Shown in pieces: positions 187 to 6,021 of a stretch of 64,000 nucleotides of DNA. The DNA comes from Terribacillus halophilus. Its GTDB lineage: Bacteria; Bacillota; Bacilli; Bacillales; Amphibacillaceae. The notes beneath the pieces were generated by a model. The model was given only the letters and a program-made list of their open reading frames with translations. It did not search any database and was not told the origin of the DNA. The translations under genes and the position numbers were made by a program. Each line of letters starts with the position of its first letter. The stretch's first letter is position 1. The stretch covers positions 2,344,235 through 2,408,234 of the forward strand of contig NZ_LT727828.1 of NCBI RefSeq assembly GCF_900162685.1, written 5' to 3'.

Positions 187-220
187 AAAGAGGCAGATCC
201 GATATCGGATCTGCCTCTTT
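187..220. terminator. Bidirectional intrinsic terminator
   Basis: A perfect 17-bp palindrome (arms AAAGAGGCAGATCCGAT) flanked by A and T runs. It lies between two converging genes and reaches into the stop codon of the kinase gene on the minus strand. Confidence 0.85.
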
Positions 221-3200
221 ACTGTTCTTCCTCTTTTTTATAAGCGATGAACCCTTTATTGCCATGCTGCAGAATGGACTGCAAAATAATCGTCGATAGC
301 TTATTGGGCGGATAAGGCTTAATAAGATAATGATTAATTTCATATTCTTTTGCCTTCTCCATTTCCTGAATCGCACTGGATATGAAGATTGGTACGTCTT
401 GTAGAAACGGCTGCTGTTTGATGTGATGGATAACATCCCAGCCGTCCACACCTTCACCAAGCATTAAGTCAATAACAAAAGCTGCGGGCTTGATATTGTG
501 CAGTTGGTTTATCAGAGTTTCGCCTGAGACAAAGCGATTAACCGTAAAACCTGCATCTTTCAGTTCATCTTCCAGGAGCATTGCTAAACTCCTGTCATCC
601 TCAAGCAGAACAATTTGTCTGCCATTTTCTTCTTTCTGCGTAACTGTATGGTCATCTGTTTCAACAAGCGGAAGGACAAGACTGAACACACTTCCTTCAC
701 CTTCTGCAGAGCGAACCATGATCTTCCCGTTATGCGCTTCTATAATTTCCTTACATATCGCCAGTCCCAATCCAGTTCCGCCGATTTTACGTGCGCTGGA
801 ATTATCAAGCCGGTTGAATTTCTGGAAAAGCCTGCTTAATTCTTGATCCGGTATTCCAATGCCTTCATCGGAAACGTGTACGAACAGCTGATGTTCCTGC
901 TGCTGAATGGAAACAACTACGTCTCCTCCATCTGGTGAGAACTTGATTGCATTACTAAGCAAATTCGTCACTACCTGAATCATCTTATCCCGGTCAGCAG
1001 CAACATAATCGTTATTACTGTTCTTCTGGATAACCAAGTTATGATGAGGACTTGTAGTTTGGAAGTTCTCTACAACTTGCTCTACAATTGGTGTAAATGC
1101 CTGCTTTTCTTTCACGTACTCTTGTTTTCCTGCTTCCATACGTTGCAAATCAAGAAAATCATTGATCAAGTTCGTCAATCTGGTTGCTTCTTGATGAATC
1201 GTCGTTAAATATCTAGCTTGGCGCTCTGGCTTCAATTCCCGATTAATCATTAATTCCGTGTAGCCGAGGACACTGGCGAGCGGTGTTCGCAGTTCATGGC
1301 TAACAGTACTGACAAGATTCGATTTCATTTGATCTACTTCGTATTCTGCTGTTATATCGCGATAGACGAATAACGTGCCAATTTTTTCACCATGGCGTTT
1401 GATTGCCACATGATAGAGCAGCAGTACTTTGTTTTCCATACCGCTGACACGCAGCCGCAAACCGCCTTCTGGCTGTTTCTCTTCAAAAATAGCCTGTTTA
1501 ATATATTGTTCATACGCTTCTTGATTATCAATATACGTTTTTGTATAGTCCATCCAGACTTCGTAGCTATTACATGCATTCCGGTGAGCCGCAACACTAG
1601 CAAGCTGCAAATAGACCTGCCAGTTGGCGTTATACTGCAATAGTTCTCCGTTTGTACTGACAAACTGGATACCTTCATTCACATTGTCGATGATATCTTG
1701 ATTCAGCTGTCTGTTGTATTCTGTTAGTTCATACGATTCAATTTTATCGAGGAATAAGCTGAGTCGTTTCAGAATCCAGTTCAGCTCTCTTTTTTCACTA
1801 TCACGGAACGGCATTTGGAACCTTGTGCAAATAAAGATTGCAACAAGATCACCAGCAGAATTATGGACCGGTATATGTAAATCCTCACTAATGCCGTTAC
1901 CGTGATATCCTTGTTCTGTGTGCGCTGCTATTCTCTCCAAAACAAACGATTCCGGAGTATCTTTCAGTCGGTTGACCACATGCTGGAAATGCTCAGCTAC
2001 TGGTTCTTCGAAATGTCGATTAAGACCAATCGCTGCCCATTCTGGTGTCTCGGTCATAAAGACTAAACCATAGTCATATCGATAAATAGCTGCCAGCTCT
2101 GAAATTATCGTATCCAGCAGTGCCTGTTTCTCCATCGTTACCGACAGCGTATTATTCATCAGATTCATCCGTTCGATCCCTTGTTTCGTCTCTTCCGTCT
2201 CGCGTAAAGACTCACGAAGTTTCTTTTCAGATTCCATAATACGCGTAATGTCTTGCTCAATAACGATTAACTGTTCTATCATCTGGTCTTCATTCGTATA
2301 AGGCACAATCGTTGCATGCACCCAAAAGCTTGTTCCATCTTTCTTCTGGTGTTCGAGCGTTCCACTCCAGGCTTGACCTTTGAACAAATCAGGAAATACT
2401 TGACGGATATCTGTTGTAATTTCTTCATGGGAAGTAATACTTAACAAATTTCTGCCGATTAATTCTTTCTCCGGACATTGAGAGATAGAACTAAAATTAG
2501 CATTTACTTGGCTGATGACACCTTTGTTATCCAGTACAATTACCATTGCTGATTCATTCAATGCCCAATTCAGATTACGCAAATCATACACAAAACCTTC
2601 CAGTTGCTGCTGCTGTTCTTTCAGCTGTGCATTTTGTTCGGAAAGGTTTTGCTCCCGATTTTGGATTCTTTTCGTCATCTCCCGGAATGCATCTGACAAA
2701 ACCCCTATTTCATCTTTGCGCTTCAGCGGTGCAACCGTCACATTCTTTCCTTGCGCAACGTCATAAGCAGCATTGGATAATTCATACAGCGGCTTTCCAA
2801 TATTTCGTGTGAACTGCCTGTTGAAGAATAAGAGCACCGCGAATAGGAACAAAACAAACAAGAACAGCATATAAGACTCCTGATTATTATCATCCATAAA
2901 GCGATCATGTAATTGAGTTACCTCCGCTTCATTTAACTGCCTTAAACGTTCTGTTACACGAAGAATCGTATTGATGTCTGAAATTCGCTCATCGGCAACT
3001 TCATCTGTAAGATCTTGCACATTATCTGAAGAAATCGCTTCCTGAAGCTGCGGATAATAAGCATCCCAATAAAGGTTTTCAAAACTTTGGAGCCGTTCTA
3101 CATACGCTTGTTCCTGACTGGAAAGATCAGTTGCTTTCAACTGCTCCAGGTTCTCCTCCAAGGAGGCATGCGCATCTTCTGCAGTCGTTCTTTCTTCTTC

Positions 3201-3434
3201 GCTTATATAAAGAGCATAGCCGCGCATATGGAAAACCATTTCGCTAACATTATCTTTAATTGATTGAATGACTCCCCGCTTCTCCACAAGTATATCGCGC
3301 GCTCTCTCATATTCCTTGTTGGTGGAATCGTGTATGTAGAAAAACGTAGTCATACCGAGAAGCGTTGCTAACAGTACAAAAAATAAGATGTAAAGAAATT
3401 GCCGCTTAATTGATTTGCGAAAGAAGTTAGGCAT
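219..3434 (-). CDS. Membrane hybrid sensor histidine kinase with C-terminal receiver
   Basis: A 1071-residue sensor kinase that autophosphorylates and passes phosphate to its own receiver. Domains read from the sequence: TM1 about 13-33, an extracellular helical region (CHASE3/4-helix-like) to about 186, TM2 187-204, HAMP about 205-260, a coiled coil, PAS about 290-395, GAF-like about 430-560, a second PAS-like region about 580-695, HisKA with His713 in SHELRTP, HATPase with the N box NLLSNAIKFS and G boxes DEGIGIP and GGTGLGLAI, then a REC domain with LLEDD at the acidic pocket, Asp989 as likely phosphoacceptor and a conserved Lys in LIKPY. It overlaps the upstream single-domain regulator by 8 bp, so the two are co-translated. 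The stimulus is unknown. With the HPt and GGDEF genes next door it would form a phosphorelay (inference). Confidence 0.93.
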   Translation of the reverse strand: MPNFFRKSIKRQFLYILFFVLLATLLGMTTFFYIHDSTNKEYERARDILVEKRGVIQSIKDNVSEMVFHMRGYALYISEEERTTAEDAHASLEENLEQLKATDLSSQEQAYVERLQSFENLYWDAYYPQLQEAISSDNVQDLTDEVADERISDINTILRVTERLRQLNEAEVTQLHDRFMDDNNQESYMLFLFVLFLFAVLLFFNRQFTRNIGKPLYELSNAAYDVAQGKNVTVAPLKRKDEIGVLSDAFREMTKRIQNREQNLSEQNAQLKEQQQQLEGFVYDLRNLNWALNESAMVIVLDNKGVISQVNANFSSISQCPEKELIGRNLLSITSHEEITTDIRQVFPDLFKGQAWSGTLEHQKKDGTSFWVHATIVPYTNEDQMIEQLIVIEQDITRIMESEKKLRESLRETEETKQGIERMNLMNNTLSVTMEKQALLDTIISELAAIYRYDYGLVFMTETPEWAAIGLNRHFEEPVAEHFQHVVNRLKDTPESFVLERIAAHTEQGYHGNGISEDLHIPVHNSAGDLVAIFICTRFQMPFRDSEKRELNWILKRLSLFLDKIESYELTEYNRQLNQDIIDNVNEGIQFVSTNGELLQYNANWQVYLQLASVAAHRNACNSYEVWMDYTKTYIDNQEAYEQYIKQAIFEEKQPEGGLRLRVSGMENKVLLLYHVAIKRHGEKIGTLFVYRDITAEYEVDQMKSNLVSTVSHELRTPLASVLGYTELMINRELKPERQARYLTTIHQEATRLTNLINDFLDLQRMEAGKQEYVKEKQAFTPIVEQVVENFQTTSPHHNLVIQKNSNNDYVAADRDKMIQVVTNLLSNAIKFSPDGGDVVVSIQQQEHQLFVHVSDEGIGIPDQELSRLFQKFNRLDNSSARKIGGTGLGLAICKEIIEAHNGKIMVRSAEGEGSVFSLVLPLVETDDHTVTQKEENGRQIVLLEDDRSLAMLLEDELKDAGFTVNRFVSGETLINQLHNIKPAAFVIDLMLGEGVDGWDVIHHIKQQPFLQDVPIFISSAIQEMEKAKEYEINHYLIKPYPPNKLSTIILQSILQHGNKGFIAYKKEEEQ

Positions 3435-3789
3435 CGAGAATATCCTCTACAAGTAACACCAGCTGCATAGGACTAAAAGGTTTAGCCATATAATAAGGAA
3501 TTCCAGCTTTCTTTGTTTCCTCAATGTCCGATTGCTGCGTCTTTGCCGTAAGCATAATGATTGGATATTGCTGTTTCCATTCATCTGTGAGCGAATGTGC
3601 CACTTCTATCCCTGTCATCCCAGGCATCATATTATCTAATATCACCAAGTCATATATTTCTGTTTGCAACTTTTTCAGCACATCCCGGCCGTCTACTGCA
3701 TTGTCGATGTTATGCCCTTCGTCTTCCAGCGTATCCGTAATAAGCATACGAAGGACTTCTTCATCATCTGCCACTAAAATTCTTGCCAT
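3427..3789 (-). CDS. CheY-like single-domain response regulator
   Basis: A 120-residue stand-alone receiver domain. Visible features are the acidic pair at Asp8-Asp9, the phosphoacceptor Asp52 in LVILDNMMPG, the conserved Thr in MLTAK and the Lys in MAKPF, so all catalytic receiver residues are present. There is no output domain; such proteins act by protein contact or as phosphate shuttles. The gene sits between the GGDEF gene (15-bp gap) and the hybrid kinase (8-bp overlap), all on the minus strand, which fits one operon. It could be the mobile intermediate between kinase and HPt; that is inference. Confidence 0.92.
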   Translation of the reverse strand: MARILVADDEEVLRMLITDTLEDEGHNIDNAVDGRDVLKKLQTEIYDLVILDNMMPGMTGIEVAHSLTDEWKQQYPIIMLTAKTQQSDIEETKKAGIPYYMAKPFSPMQLVLLVEDILDA

Positions 3790-3804: not shown

Positions 3805-5121
3805 CTATGTACGGAGTATCATCCGTTTAATTCTGGCTGCAACTTCTTCGACACAGAATGGTTTGGTCATATAATCATCTGCTCCAAGTTCCAGCGCCTT
3901 TACGACATCTTGATTATCCTGCCTGCCTGTAAGCATCATAATAAACAGGTTTTTCTCATTCGGGAATGTCCGAAGCATACTCAGCACCTCTAAGCCATCC
4001 ATATCAGGCATTACACCATCCAGCAGCACAATATGCTTGCCTGCTTGTTTTATCCAATCCGAAGCTAACAGCGTACTGCCGTTGGCAAATGTTCGCAACT
4101 GTATTCGATAACCATCAAGCTGTAAATCTCTTAAATTATCATCCAGCAAAGAGCGAATGACTGCATCATCATCTACAACCGAAAGATAGAGAGATTTATA
4201 AGGCTCTTCCATCATCTGAAAGCGCGTCTCATATACATTCACTTGTTGCTTTCCATTACGCTTTCCGTAATATAGGGCTTGGTCTGCCCGCTCAATAAGC
4301 TGATGCAAAGAAAACCGCTGTTCATTCGAATTGGATGAGATGCCAGCGGTAAAGGAATTATAAATCGTTTCCTGTGTGAGTTCCTGAGGTTTTTGCATGT
4401 ATCCTTCCAACATATCGCGCAAACGATTGGCTGCTGCATCACCCGATATACCCGGCATCAGCAGCAAAAACTCTTCTCCGCCATAGCGGATCACATAATC
4501 TTCTTCTCGAACGGCATGTTTTAAATACGCTGCAAAATTACGTAATATAGTGTCTCCGCTTGCATGTCCATATGTATCATTTACTTGTTTAAAGTTATCT
4601 ATATCAAGCACTGCGCAAGCAAGTTCTGACATTCGGCCAATTGGAAAACTGGCGAGAAATGAGCGGTTATATACCTGTGTTAAAGGATCTACTACCACTC
4701 GCTGCTCCATTGTATCCAGCAGACTCAAGCGATTGAATAGAAGCTCGATCACCAGTTCATCTACTTCAGCTGCGTCGAGAATGTCTGTAATACCATTACG
4801 CAAATAACGCCGCTTTTCTTCCATCGTCAGTTGTCCGCCGATAAACATGACAAAAGAGAACATTTTTTGCTGGATATATGCTGTGTCTTCTTTTGCTATA
4901 TGACCTCTCCAATTGCCGTCAATCAATGTAATGAGCGGATGCGAATCATAAAGGTGAGCAATGGCACGTTCTTTATCTGCAGCAACAATGACTTGAAGAC
5001 CTTCTTTTTCTATACGTTCTCTTGCTCGCATGAGCCAATCATTATTACTGGATATGAGAAGAACGGGCTCCTGTCTAATTAGTTCTCGCGGACTTGGGGG
5101 CATTTCCGGTTTCTGCTGCAA
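3805..5121 (-). CDS. REC-GGDEF-REC diguanylate cyclase (3' part of an interrupted HPt-REC-GGDEF-REC gene)
   Basis: The readable product is 438 residues. It has an N-terminal degenerate receiver (about 17-130, acidic pocket replaced by SSNN), a GGDEF domain (about 140-300) with an intact GGEEF active site at 214-218, and a C-terminal receiver (about 314-436) with VVDDD, LLDGVMPD and TKPF motifs. An RxxD motif (Arg205, Asp208) stands exactly five residues before GGEEF, the usual product-inhibition site of c-di-GMP synthases, so the cyclase should make and be inhibited by c-di-GMP. The start given is a TTG with only a weak ribosome binding site. The same frame continues upstream through an amber codon at 5194-5196 into an HPt domain, so the ancestral protein was about 524 residues. 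Whether the 3' part is expressed on its own is unclear. Confidence 0.8.
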   Translation of the reverse strand: MQQKPEMPPSPRELIRQEPVLLISSNNDWLMRARERIEKEGLQVIVAADKERAIAHLYDSHPLITLIDGNWRGHIAKEDTAYIQQKMFSFVMFIGGQLTMEEKRRYLRNGITDILDAAEVDELVIELLFNRLSLLDTMEQRVVVDPLTQVYNRSFLASFPIGRMSELACAVLDIDNFKQVNDTYGHASGDTILRNFAAYLKHAVREEDYVIRYGGEEFLLLMPGISGDAAANRLRDMLEGYMQKPQELTQETIYNSFTAGISSNSNEQRFSLHQLIERADQALYYGKRNGKQQVNVYETRFQMMEEPYKSLYLSVVDDDAVIRSLLDDNLRDLQLDGYRIQLRTFANGSTLLASDWIKQAGKHIVLLDGVMPDMDGLEVLSMLRTFPNEKNLFIMMLTGRQDNQDVVKALELGADDYMTKPFCVEEVAARIKRMILRT

Positions 5122-5193
5122 TTCTGCCTCAATTGCATCTATTATCGGAAGCCAGACAGCCTTGCTGAGACGCGAGTCCTCAATTTCCGCAAT

Positions 5194-5379
5194 CTATTTC
5201 AATTGAGTTTCTGCAACTTCAGAGAGCGTATCCAATCCAATCGATGCACCGGTACCCTTTATTTGATGAACAAGTTGATACAAGTCATCCTTATAAATTA
5301 CGTCTTGCTGTTTAAACATCGCAAAGCTTTCATTAATCTTTGACAAAAAAATCTCTTGGTATTTCTTCAATCTGTACAC
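5194..5379 (-). pseudogene. HPt domain, N-terminal part of the GGDEF protein, cut by an in-frame TAG
   Basis: Sixty-one codons from a GTG start encode most of a histidine phosphotransfer domain with the motif HQIKG (His38). The frame ends at TAG (minus strand, + positions 5194-5196). The same frame then reads on with good coding character (IAEIEDSRLSKAVW and so on) for 24 codons to the TTG used as start of the GGDEF ORF. Both parts share one frame without an indel, so the break is a single nonsense codon, probably from a CAG, AAG or similar codon. The last helix of the four-helix bundle is lost if TAG is read as stop. A sequencing error, a strain-specific mutation or readthrough are all possible. 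Confidence 0.7.
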
Positions 5380-5430
5380 CTCTACCTTTTTTTACACTTG
5401 ACCTGGTGTATAAGCTAAGATTGCAGATTG

Positions 5431-5476: not shown

Positions 5477-5893
5477 TTACGTTTTCATTATATCTGTCAG
5501 TTTTACGAGAAATATACCATATAACAAGTGCCCGGTATACCAGATGAACAACGCATATCCGTCTCCCATCGCCGGGACAGGTTTCACAGCGAGCATGACT
5601 AATGGGAAATAAACACCTGCCACAACAGTACTCATTATCATTCCAATTAGCCACTTGTTAACAGTTAGTCTTCTCTTCAACATGATATAAACAGGAACAA
5701 TTGCCCAGGAAATAATTAAATGAAACAAATTAAGCAACAGTTGATTCCACTCCACTTGTTTTAAGAGCGGAATAAAATCCACATTCATTAAAAGCGTATA
5801 AACACGGATACCTGTAAGCTGCTGCCAAAGAAACATCCATCCAGATAATATAAGTCCAGCAATGCTGCCAATCAGCAGAATTCTTACAAACAT
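5477..5893 (-). CDS. Four-TM integral membrane protein of unknown function
   Basis: A 138-residue hydrophobic protein with four predicted membrane segments (roughly residues 3-22, 50-72, 82-103 and 112-132) and short basic loops (LKRRLTVNKW). AGGAGG lies only 2 nt before the first ATG (5899) and 8 nt before the ATG at 5893, so the latter is chosen. I do not recognise the family. It stands alone between the signalling operon and the divergent NifU-N gene, so context gives no function. Confidence 0.7.
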   Translation of the reverse strand: MFVRILLIGSIAGLILSGWMFLWQQLTGIRVYTLLMNVDFIPLLKQVEWNQLLLNLFHLIISWAIVPVYIMLKRRLTVNKWLIGMIMSTVVAGVYFPLVMLAVKPVPAMGDGYALFIWYTGHLLYGIFLVKLTDIMKT

Positions 5894-6021
5894 TCCCATC
5901 TCCTCCTTTTCATTTGAAGATACCCGTACAACGCTGGAATGAAGCTAATTATTTCCCGCTTTTTAAAATGGTGTCTATCTGCTATGATAGGGGTAAGTAT
6001 GGACGCTAGGAGGTCAAGAGC

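Follow-up and report, generated by a model that had tools for sequence, protein, structure and literature searches.

Operon layout and reading frame

The window analysed here, a stretch of 64,000 nucleotides (G000:C13:2344235-2408234), comes from a genome of 3.45 Mb in 13 contigs. Its minus strand carries an operon of three consecutive genes, which encode an HPt-REC-GGDEF-REC protein (5370-3805), a receiver (3789-3427) and a hybrid kinase (3434-219). In window coordinates, the features at the locus are:

5477..5899, minus strand: upstream 140-aa ORF with hydrophobic stretches and without a Pfam family; scraps of it mark scars in G001, G003 and G007
5368..5370, minus strand: likely TTG start of the HPt-REC-GGDEF-REC gene; TTG-AAG-AAA kept in relatives, SD pairing -10.0 kcal/mol
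5194..5370, minus strand: 58-codon HPt fragment before the amber, stop included (ORF calls, translation); Pfam Hpt below cut-off
5266..5268, minus strand: HPt histidine, codon 35 (family alignment)
5188..5232, minus strand: predicted HPt helix 3, residues 47-61, with the amber inside (structure model)
5194..5196, minus strand: in-frame amber TAG, codon 59 (translation); sense in six genus orthologues
5116..5163, minus strand: predicted HPt helix 4, residues 70-85, behind the amber and so lost (structure model)
3805..5121, minus strand: REC-GGDEF-REC frame open behind the amber, with TTG 5119-5121 as a possible but weak internal start (ORF; SD -5.6 kcal/mol)
4246..4695, minus strand: GGDEF domain with GGEEF and I-site (Pfam PF00990, alignment)
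3829..4179, minus strand: C-terminal receiver, REC2 (Pfam PF00072)
3427..3789, minus strand: stand-alone receiver, second operon gene, intact (ORF, Pfam, comparison with relatives)
219..3434, minus strand: hybrid histidine kinase HAMP-PAS-HisKA-HATPase-REC, final operon gene, intact (ORF, Pfam, genome search)

Translation of 3805-5415 on the minus strand gave a single frame whose sole interruption is the TAG at 5194-5196, and which ends at its natural stop (3805-3807), itself also a TAG. This agrees with the preliminary description of the locus, which had placed the HPt and GGDEF ORFs in one frame with only this TAG between them and no frameshift. The first gene likely starts at TTG 5368-5370 and not at GTG 5379, because its SD pairing is stronger (-10.0 versus -4.0 kcal/mol) and because the codon directly after the equivalent of that GTG is a stop in two relatives (L010 and L013), in which the TTG-AAG-AAA start is retained. 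Counted from this TTG, the frame has 521 codons, of which the amber is the 59th. The preliminary description had expected 524 residues, a length that counts from GTG 5379; uninterrupted homologues of the kind it foresaw do exist.

The amber falls within the HPt domain

The GGDEF domain was recognised by Pfam with 118 bits and has GGEEF at its active site, the motif of a diguanylate cyclase. Pfam did not report the first receiver of the HPt-REC-GGDEF-REC protein, and this receiver is degenerate in the genus, with S, S and N at the acidic-pocket positions that are D/E in most rows of the family alignment. It nevertheless still has an Asp at the phospho-acceptor column (window 4700-5100, minus strand).

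The HPt histidine, the GGEEF motif, the Arg and Asp of the I-site, and the Asp and Lys of REC2 are all present, as the preliminary description had stated in calling the key residues intact, but the amber lies inside the HPt domain and interrupts it. Pfam Hpt matched the fragment over residues 28-54 (profile positions 27-53 of 84) with 23.8 bits, against a cut-off of 24.6, and scored 20.5 bits on the whole G002 protein. We modelled the first 90 codons with AlphaFold2, reading through the amber and using a two-row alignment of the window sequence and Halobacillus L036. The model has helices at residues 2-20, 27-43, 47-61 and 70-85 (mean pLDDT 91.6), with His35 within helix 2, the amber codon 59 within helix 3, and helix 4 beyond the stop. 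Because in this confident model the amber interrupts helix 3 and deprives the domain of helix 4, the HPt is predicted to be no intact module: its product would end at residue 58 in helix 3, leaving the four-helix bundle unfinished. A Foldseek search of the HPt model against the PDB yielded no match with an E-value of 0.001 or lower. HPt proteins from plants and bacteria are among its weak matches (probability up to 0.98, E 0.24), and the top-ranked of these matches is a redesigned protein, a designed bundle. No PDB chain was matched by the sequence of the HPt region. The HPt label thus stands on a conserved motif and a predicted fold.

Whole, broken and missing operons in the genus

We compared ten genomes of the genus, including that of the window (G000). 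Six orthologues run through the amber codon in one frame (G002, G004, G005, G006, G008 and G009), and the nearest relative with the gene, G002, is 90% identical and has a sense codon at this position. The comparison of this codon in close relatives, which the preliminary description had proposed, therefore returned sense in 6/6 alignable genus orthologues.

All three genes are uninterrupted in 5/10 genomes (G002, G004, G005, G008 and G009). The G002 kinase seems to contain a TAA, which was set aside as a mere end difference because it lies at residue 1069 of 1071. The other 5/10 have a broken operon or none at all: in addition to the amber in G000, there is a different in-frame TAG in the C-terminal receiver of G006 (L011/L122), a frameshifted copy in G003, and scars in G001 and G007. 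In G003, the cyclase is split over two frames, with the switch at about codon 122-127, and the free receiver also occupies two frames; there are fragments of the upstream ORF, and the kinase is reduced to a scrap. A search of the whole G001 genome found neither cyclase nor kinase. At the corresponding site (L173:8396-8723), residues 11-94 of the upstream ORF adjoin C-terminal scraps of the kinase (1025-1040 and 1060-1070), an arrangement that identifies the site, by its sequence, as a deletion scar. The operon was likewise absent from the G007 genome when searched, and where it is missing (L174:8607-8657) a scrap of 32-39 bases remains of the upstream ORF. This scrap was matched by blastn at E 1e-9 or better in three comparisons, and at 4e-9 at worst with the window; at the protein level it scored 25.8-28.5 bits, whereas none of 40 shuffles exceeded 24.6.

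On a midpoint-rooted nucleotide tree of the three genes, G000 groups with G001 and G002, and G003 groups with G007. From the placement of the genomes on this tree, we count at least four apparently independent events of breakage or loss: one each in G000, G001 and G006, and one or two in G003/G007.

The G006 operon has a further peculiarity. Its copy (L149) carries more synonymous changes than that of G005 in the receiver (21 versus 6) and in the kinase (167 versus 129), and no such rise is seen in AsnB (26 versus 35) or YitT (7 versus 15). An excess limited in this way suggests recombination into the G006 operon.

Selection across the broken frame

Between G000 and G002, dN/dS over the whole cyclase frame is 0.081, and two other pairs gave 0.085 and 0.115. 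By stretch, the G000-G002 values are 0.068 for codons 1-60 (TAG skipped), 0.113 for codons 61-84, and then 0.054, 0.090 and 0.091; those of the kinase and the receiver are 0.062 and 0.064. A chance open frame is ruled out by the orthologues that run through the codon and by the low dN/dS on both sides of the TAG.

When changes were polarised with five agreeing outgroups, synonymous and nonsynonymous changes numbered 25 and 11 on the G000 branch and 26 and 22 on the G002 branch; with G004 as sole outgroup, the counts were 42 and 16 for G000, and 48 and 31 for G002. The absence of a nonsynonymous excess on the G000 branch rules out a long-decayed pseudogene. By a mixture estimate, the G000 branch has a neutral share of 0.02-0.04 (upper bounds 0.09-0.14), although the estimate is crude, since the intact G002 copy scores higher, at 0.10. 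Since dN/dS is 0.08 across the broken frame and the branch shows no excess of amino-acid change, the stop appears to be recent. Low dN/dS would fit a working gene too, so that either the amber is young or the frame downstream is still in use. Otherwise the locus has the marks of a recent pseudogene, with close intact orthologues (five of them whole) and a derived stop found in G000 alone.

Homologues in the family and order

At the family level, 24/159 genomes matched at 1e-60. Among the 31 matches listed, stops occur only in G000 and, in a different place, in G006; G003 is partial, and G026 aligns only from residue 98. At the order level, in a sample drawn without G006, 160/397 genomes matched at 1e-65, and among the 150 matches listed, which were counted by hand, only G000 has an internal stop and only G003 is partial. 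Uninterrupted homologues are thus found, and a fused HPt-REC-GGDEF-REC protein is the rule, not the separate genes that the preliminary description had raised as an alternative.

In an alignment of 30 family proteins, 10/30 have another residue in place of the HPt His or cannot be aligned there (rows L127, L129-L133 and L135-L138), while the REC2 Asp is retained in 30/30 and GG[D/E]EF in 29/30. A receiver and a kinase lie downstream of the gene in 15/20 His-bearing rows versus 0/10 His-less rows, and the latter form two clades on a midpoint-rooted tree. One of the His-less rows, L135, has an unrelated-looking two-component pair upstream (29% or less). Several His-bearing paralogues (L139, L140, L141, L143 and L144) have no receiver or kinase next to them; their next ORF, of about 350 aa, has a hydrophobic start and is followed by a further ORF.

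A rule that the HPt His is lost wherever the kinase is missing did not hold generally. At the order level the His is kept in 30/30 rows, these being the best matches of a His-bearing query (L220 repeats L123), and both neighbours lie within the 1500-base flank in 11/30, so that 19/30 rows without the REC-kinase pair keep the His. In these alignments, every row that has lost the HPt His also lacks an adjacent kinase, and absent neighbours do not imply loss. We treat this pattern as a lead, because the rows are few and related.

Alternative explanations for the amber codon

A recent, lineage-specific nonsense mutation that uncouples the phosphorelay from the cyclase, as one of at least four losses of the operon, is in our view the probable explanation. 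Of the three options that the preliminary description had named, it is the best supported, given the conserved frame, the low dN/dS and a stop unique to G000. Since the stop was seen in one genome only, in a frame that appears fully constrained with one codon as its sole obstacle, an error of sequencing or assembly, or a polymorphism peculiar to a single isolate, must be weighed against it. We consider this unlikely: the contig with the window measures 2.56 Mb, the genome is 100% complete and 1.18% contaminated, and among 55 matched non-shadow ORFs of the window there is no other mid-gene stop. (A non-overlap filter left 60 G002 ORFs, of which 55 were matched and four flagged, one of them mid-gene; the other flagged ORFs have stops at residues 7/9 and 9, a matter of start choice, and at 113 of 135.) A poor assembly was rejected on the same grounds, as the unfiltered flags were mostly opposite-strand shadow frames and the filtered set left the one mid-gene stop. 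The repeated breakage across the genus also argues against an error, because in a genus that breaks this operon repeatedly a real lesion is unsurprising. Regulated or programmed readthrough, the third option, would yield a small amount of full-length protein. The coding constraint on both sides of the amber would fit it, as would the variability of the amber column, which holds eight residue types in the other 29/30 family rows, so that many residues would be tolerated at codon 59. Furthermore, Belinky et al. 2021 (PMC7918605) make the case that bacteria often carry in-frame stops under purifying selection. The same authors, however, describe most such stops as short-lived, on the scale of polymorphism, and their brief persistence speaks against readthrough. 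So do the conservation of the stop in 0/6 genus orthologues alignable at the codon, the use of TAG as the gene's own terminator, and the lack of a CUA anticodon among the 60 tRNA genes called in the genome by ARAGORN (Rfam also gave 60 tRNA matches, and the one uncalled by ARAGORN has, by eye, a Lys-type TTT loop). No PylS scored above cut-off, the best match reaching 28.9 bits against 178.15. Genome-wide recoding of TAG was rejected on the terminator, the tRNAs and PylS. A structured readthrough signal was likewise rejected, as the RNA fold around the amber is average (z 0.22), with 113/200 shuffles folding at least as well. With suppressor tRNA, PylS, fold and stop conservation all negative, we hold readthrough to be highly improbable.

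The amber might also truncate the protein without silencing it, so that an HPt-less REC-GGDEF-REC cyclase is made from TTG 5121 or a later ATG, with phosphorylation at REC2 still possible. This outcome, which we rate as possible but short of probable, is a live rival because of a precedent for activity past such a stop: in Shigella flexneri (PMC11327459), dgcE, dgcQ and dgcN with nonsense mutations before GGDEF still raised c-di-GMP, and nonsense-mutated cyclases gave several products, as would be expected if more than one start codon were used. A review (PMC10333796) also describes c-di-GMP enzymes that function in truncated form. At our locus no damage is seen in GGEEF, the I-site or REC2, and dN/dS there is 0.09, although this low value may merely reflect a recent stop; the family drops the HPt His (10/30) while keeping the REC2 Asp (30/30) and GG[D/E]EF (29/30). 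The in-frame starts past the amber are TTG 5121, which is preceded by GAGG (SD -5.6 kcal/mol), ATG 5103 (-2.2) and ATG 5031 (-3.1). Yet TTG 5121 is weak, given that 22% of the 992 internal in-frame starts in window ORFs pair as well and that only about 4% of 46 window gene starts are weaker. Its GAGG-TTG is not new in G000, being present in G002, and this first start lies 25 codons beyond the amber, whereas the Met given for the tabulated Shigella cases is either upstream of the stop or within a few codons past it. An extended version, in which evolution has repeatedly uncoupled this cyclase from its phosphorelay and the amber is one such step, with the HPt expendable, an HPt-less cyclase made from the internal start, and the kinase and receiver repurposed, would accord with the two family clades without adjacent REC and kinase, which lost the HPt His yet kept GGDEF and REC2; we regard it as doubtful.

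Interpretation and comparison with known systems

Under the recent nonsense mutation that we favour, a single-codon change would have arisen in the gene that opens the three-gene phosphorelay/c-di-GMP operon. Ribosomes would stop at codon 59, in HPt helix 3, leaving the HPt unfinished, and the bulk of the diguanylate cyclase would not be made from its own start. The hybrid kinase and the free receiver would still be made, and the phosphorelay would lose its c-di-GMP output. From the sequence, we infer loss of function of the broken cyclase gene. As the operon has been broken or lost at least four times, the pathway appears dispensable in the genus. Taken singly, the amber is an ordinary nonsense mutation, and it is the repeated loss of the operon that adds interest: the locus would represent a natural, dated case in which c-di-GMP synthesis has been cut off from a histidine phosphorelay, beside sister species in which the operon is whole, otherwise broken or deleted. 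If loss is truly so frequent, the genus would be a small natural experiment on the pathway's worth.

A literature search on HPt-REC-GGDEF found no paper. The closest parallel is provided by dgcE, dgcQ, dgcN and dgcM of Shigella flexneri, for which PMC11327459 likewise reports a premature stop before an intact GGDEF, in some cases with an I-site, and intact orthologues. By comparison, the input here is an HPt in a Bacillales-type kinase operon, and the next start is weak and 25 codons off. The low dN/dS around an in-frame stop, well below 1, also recalls Belinky et al. 2021 (PMC7918605), whose test needs the stop in orthologues of at least two species, whereas here it occurs in one genome. As for architecture, the best-ranked NCBIfam match is to the PleD-type cyclases (NF007135), which likewise combine two receivers with GGDEF. 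The G002 protein, however, scores 171 bits against the curated cut-off of 474 and so falls outside that family; its domains run HPt-REC-GGDEF-REC, with a degenerate first receiver. Proteins from the same taxonomic order, such as that of Halobacillus litoralis (L036), have the same domains, and many copies lie in an operon with REC and a hybrid kinase; they differ from the window gene in being encoded by one uninterrupted frame.
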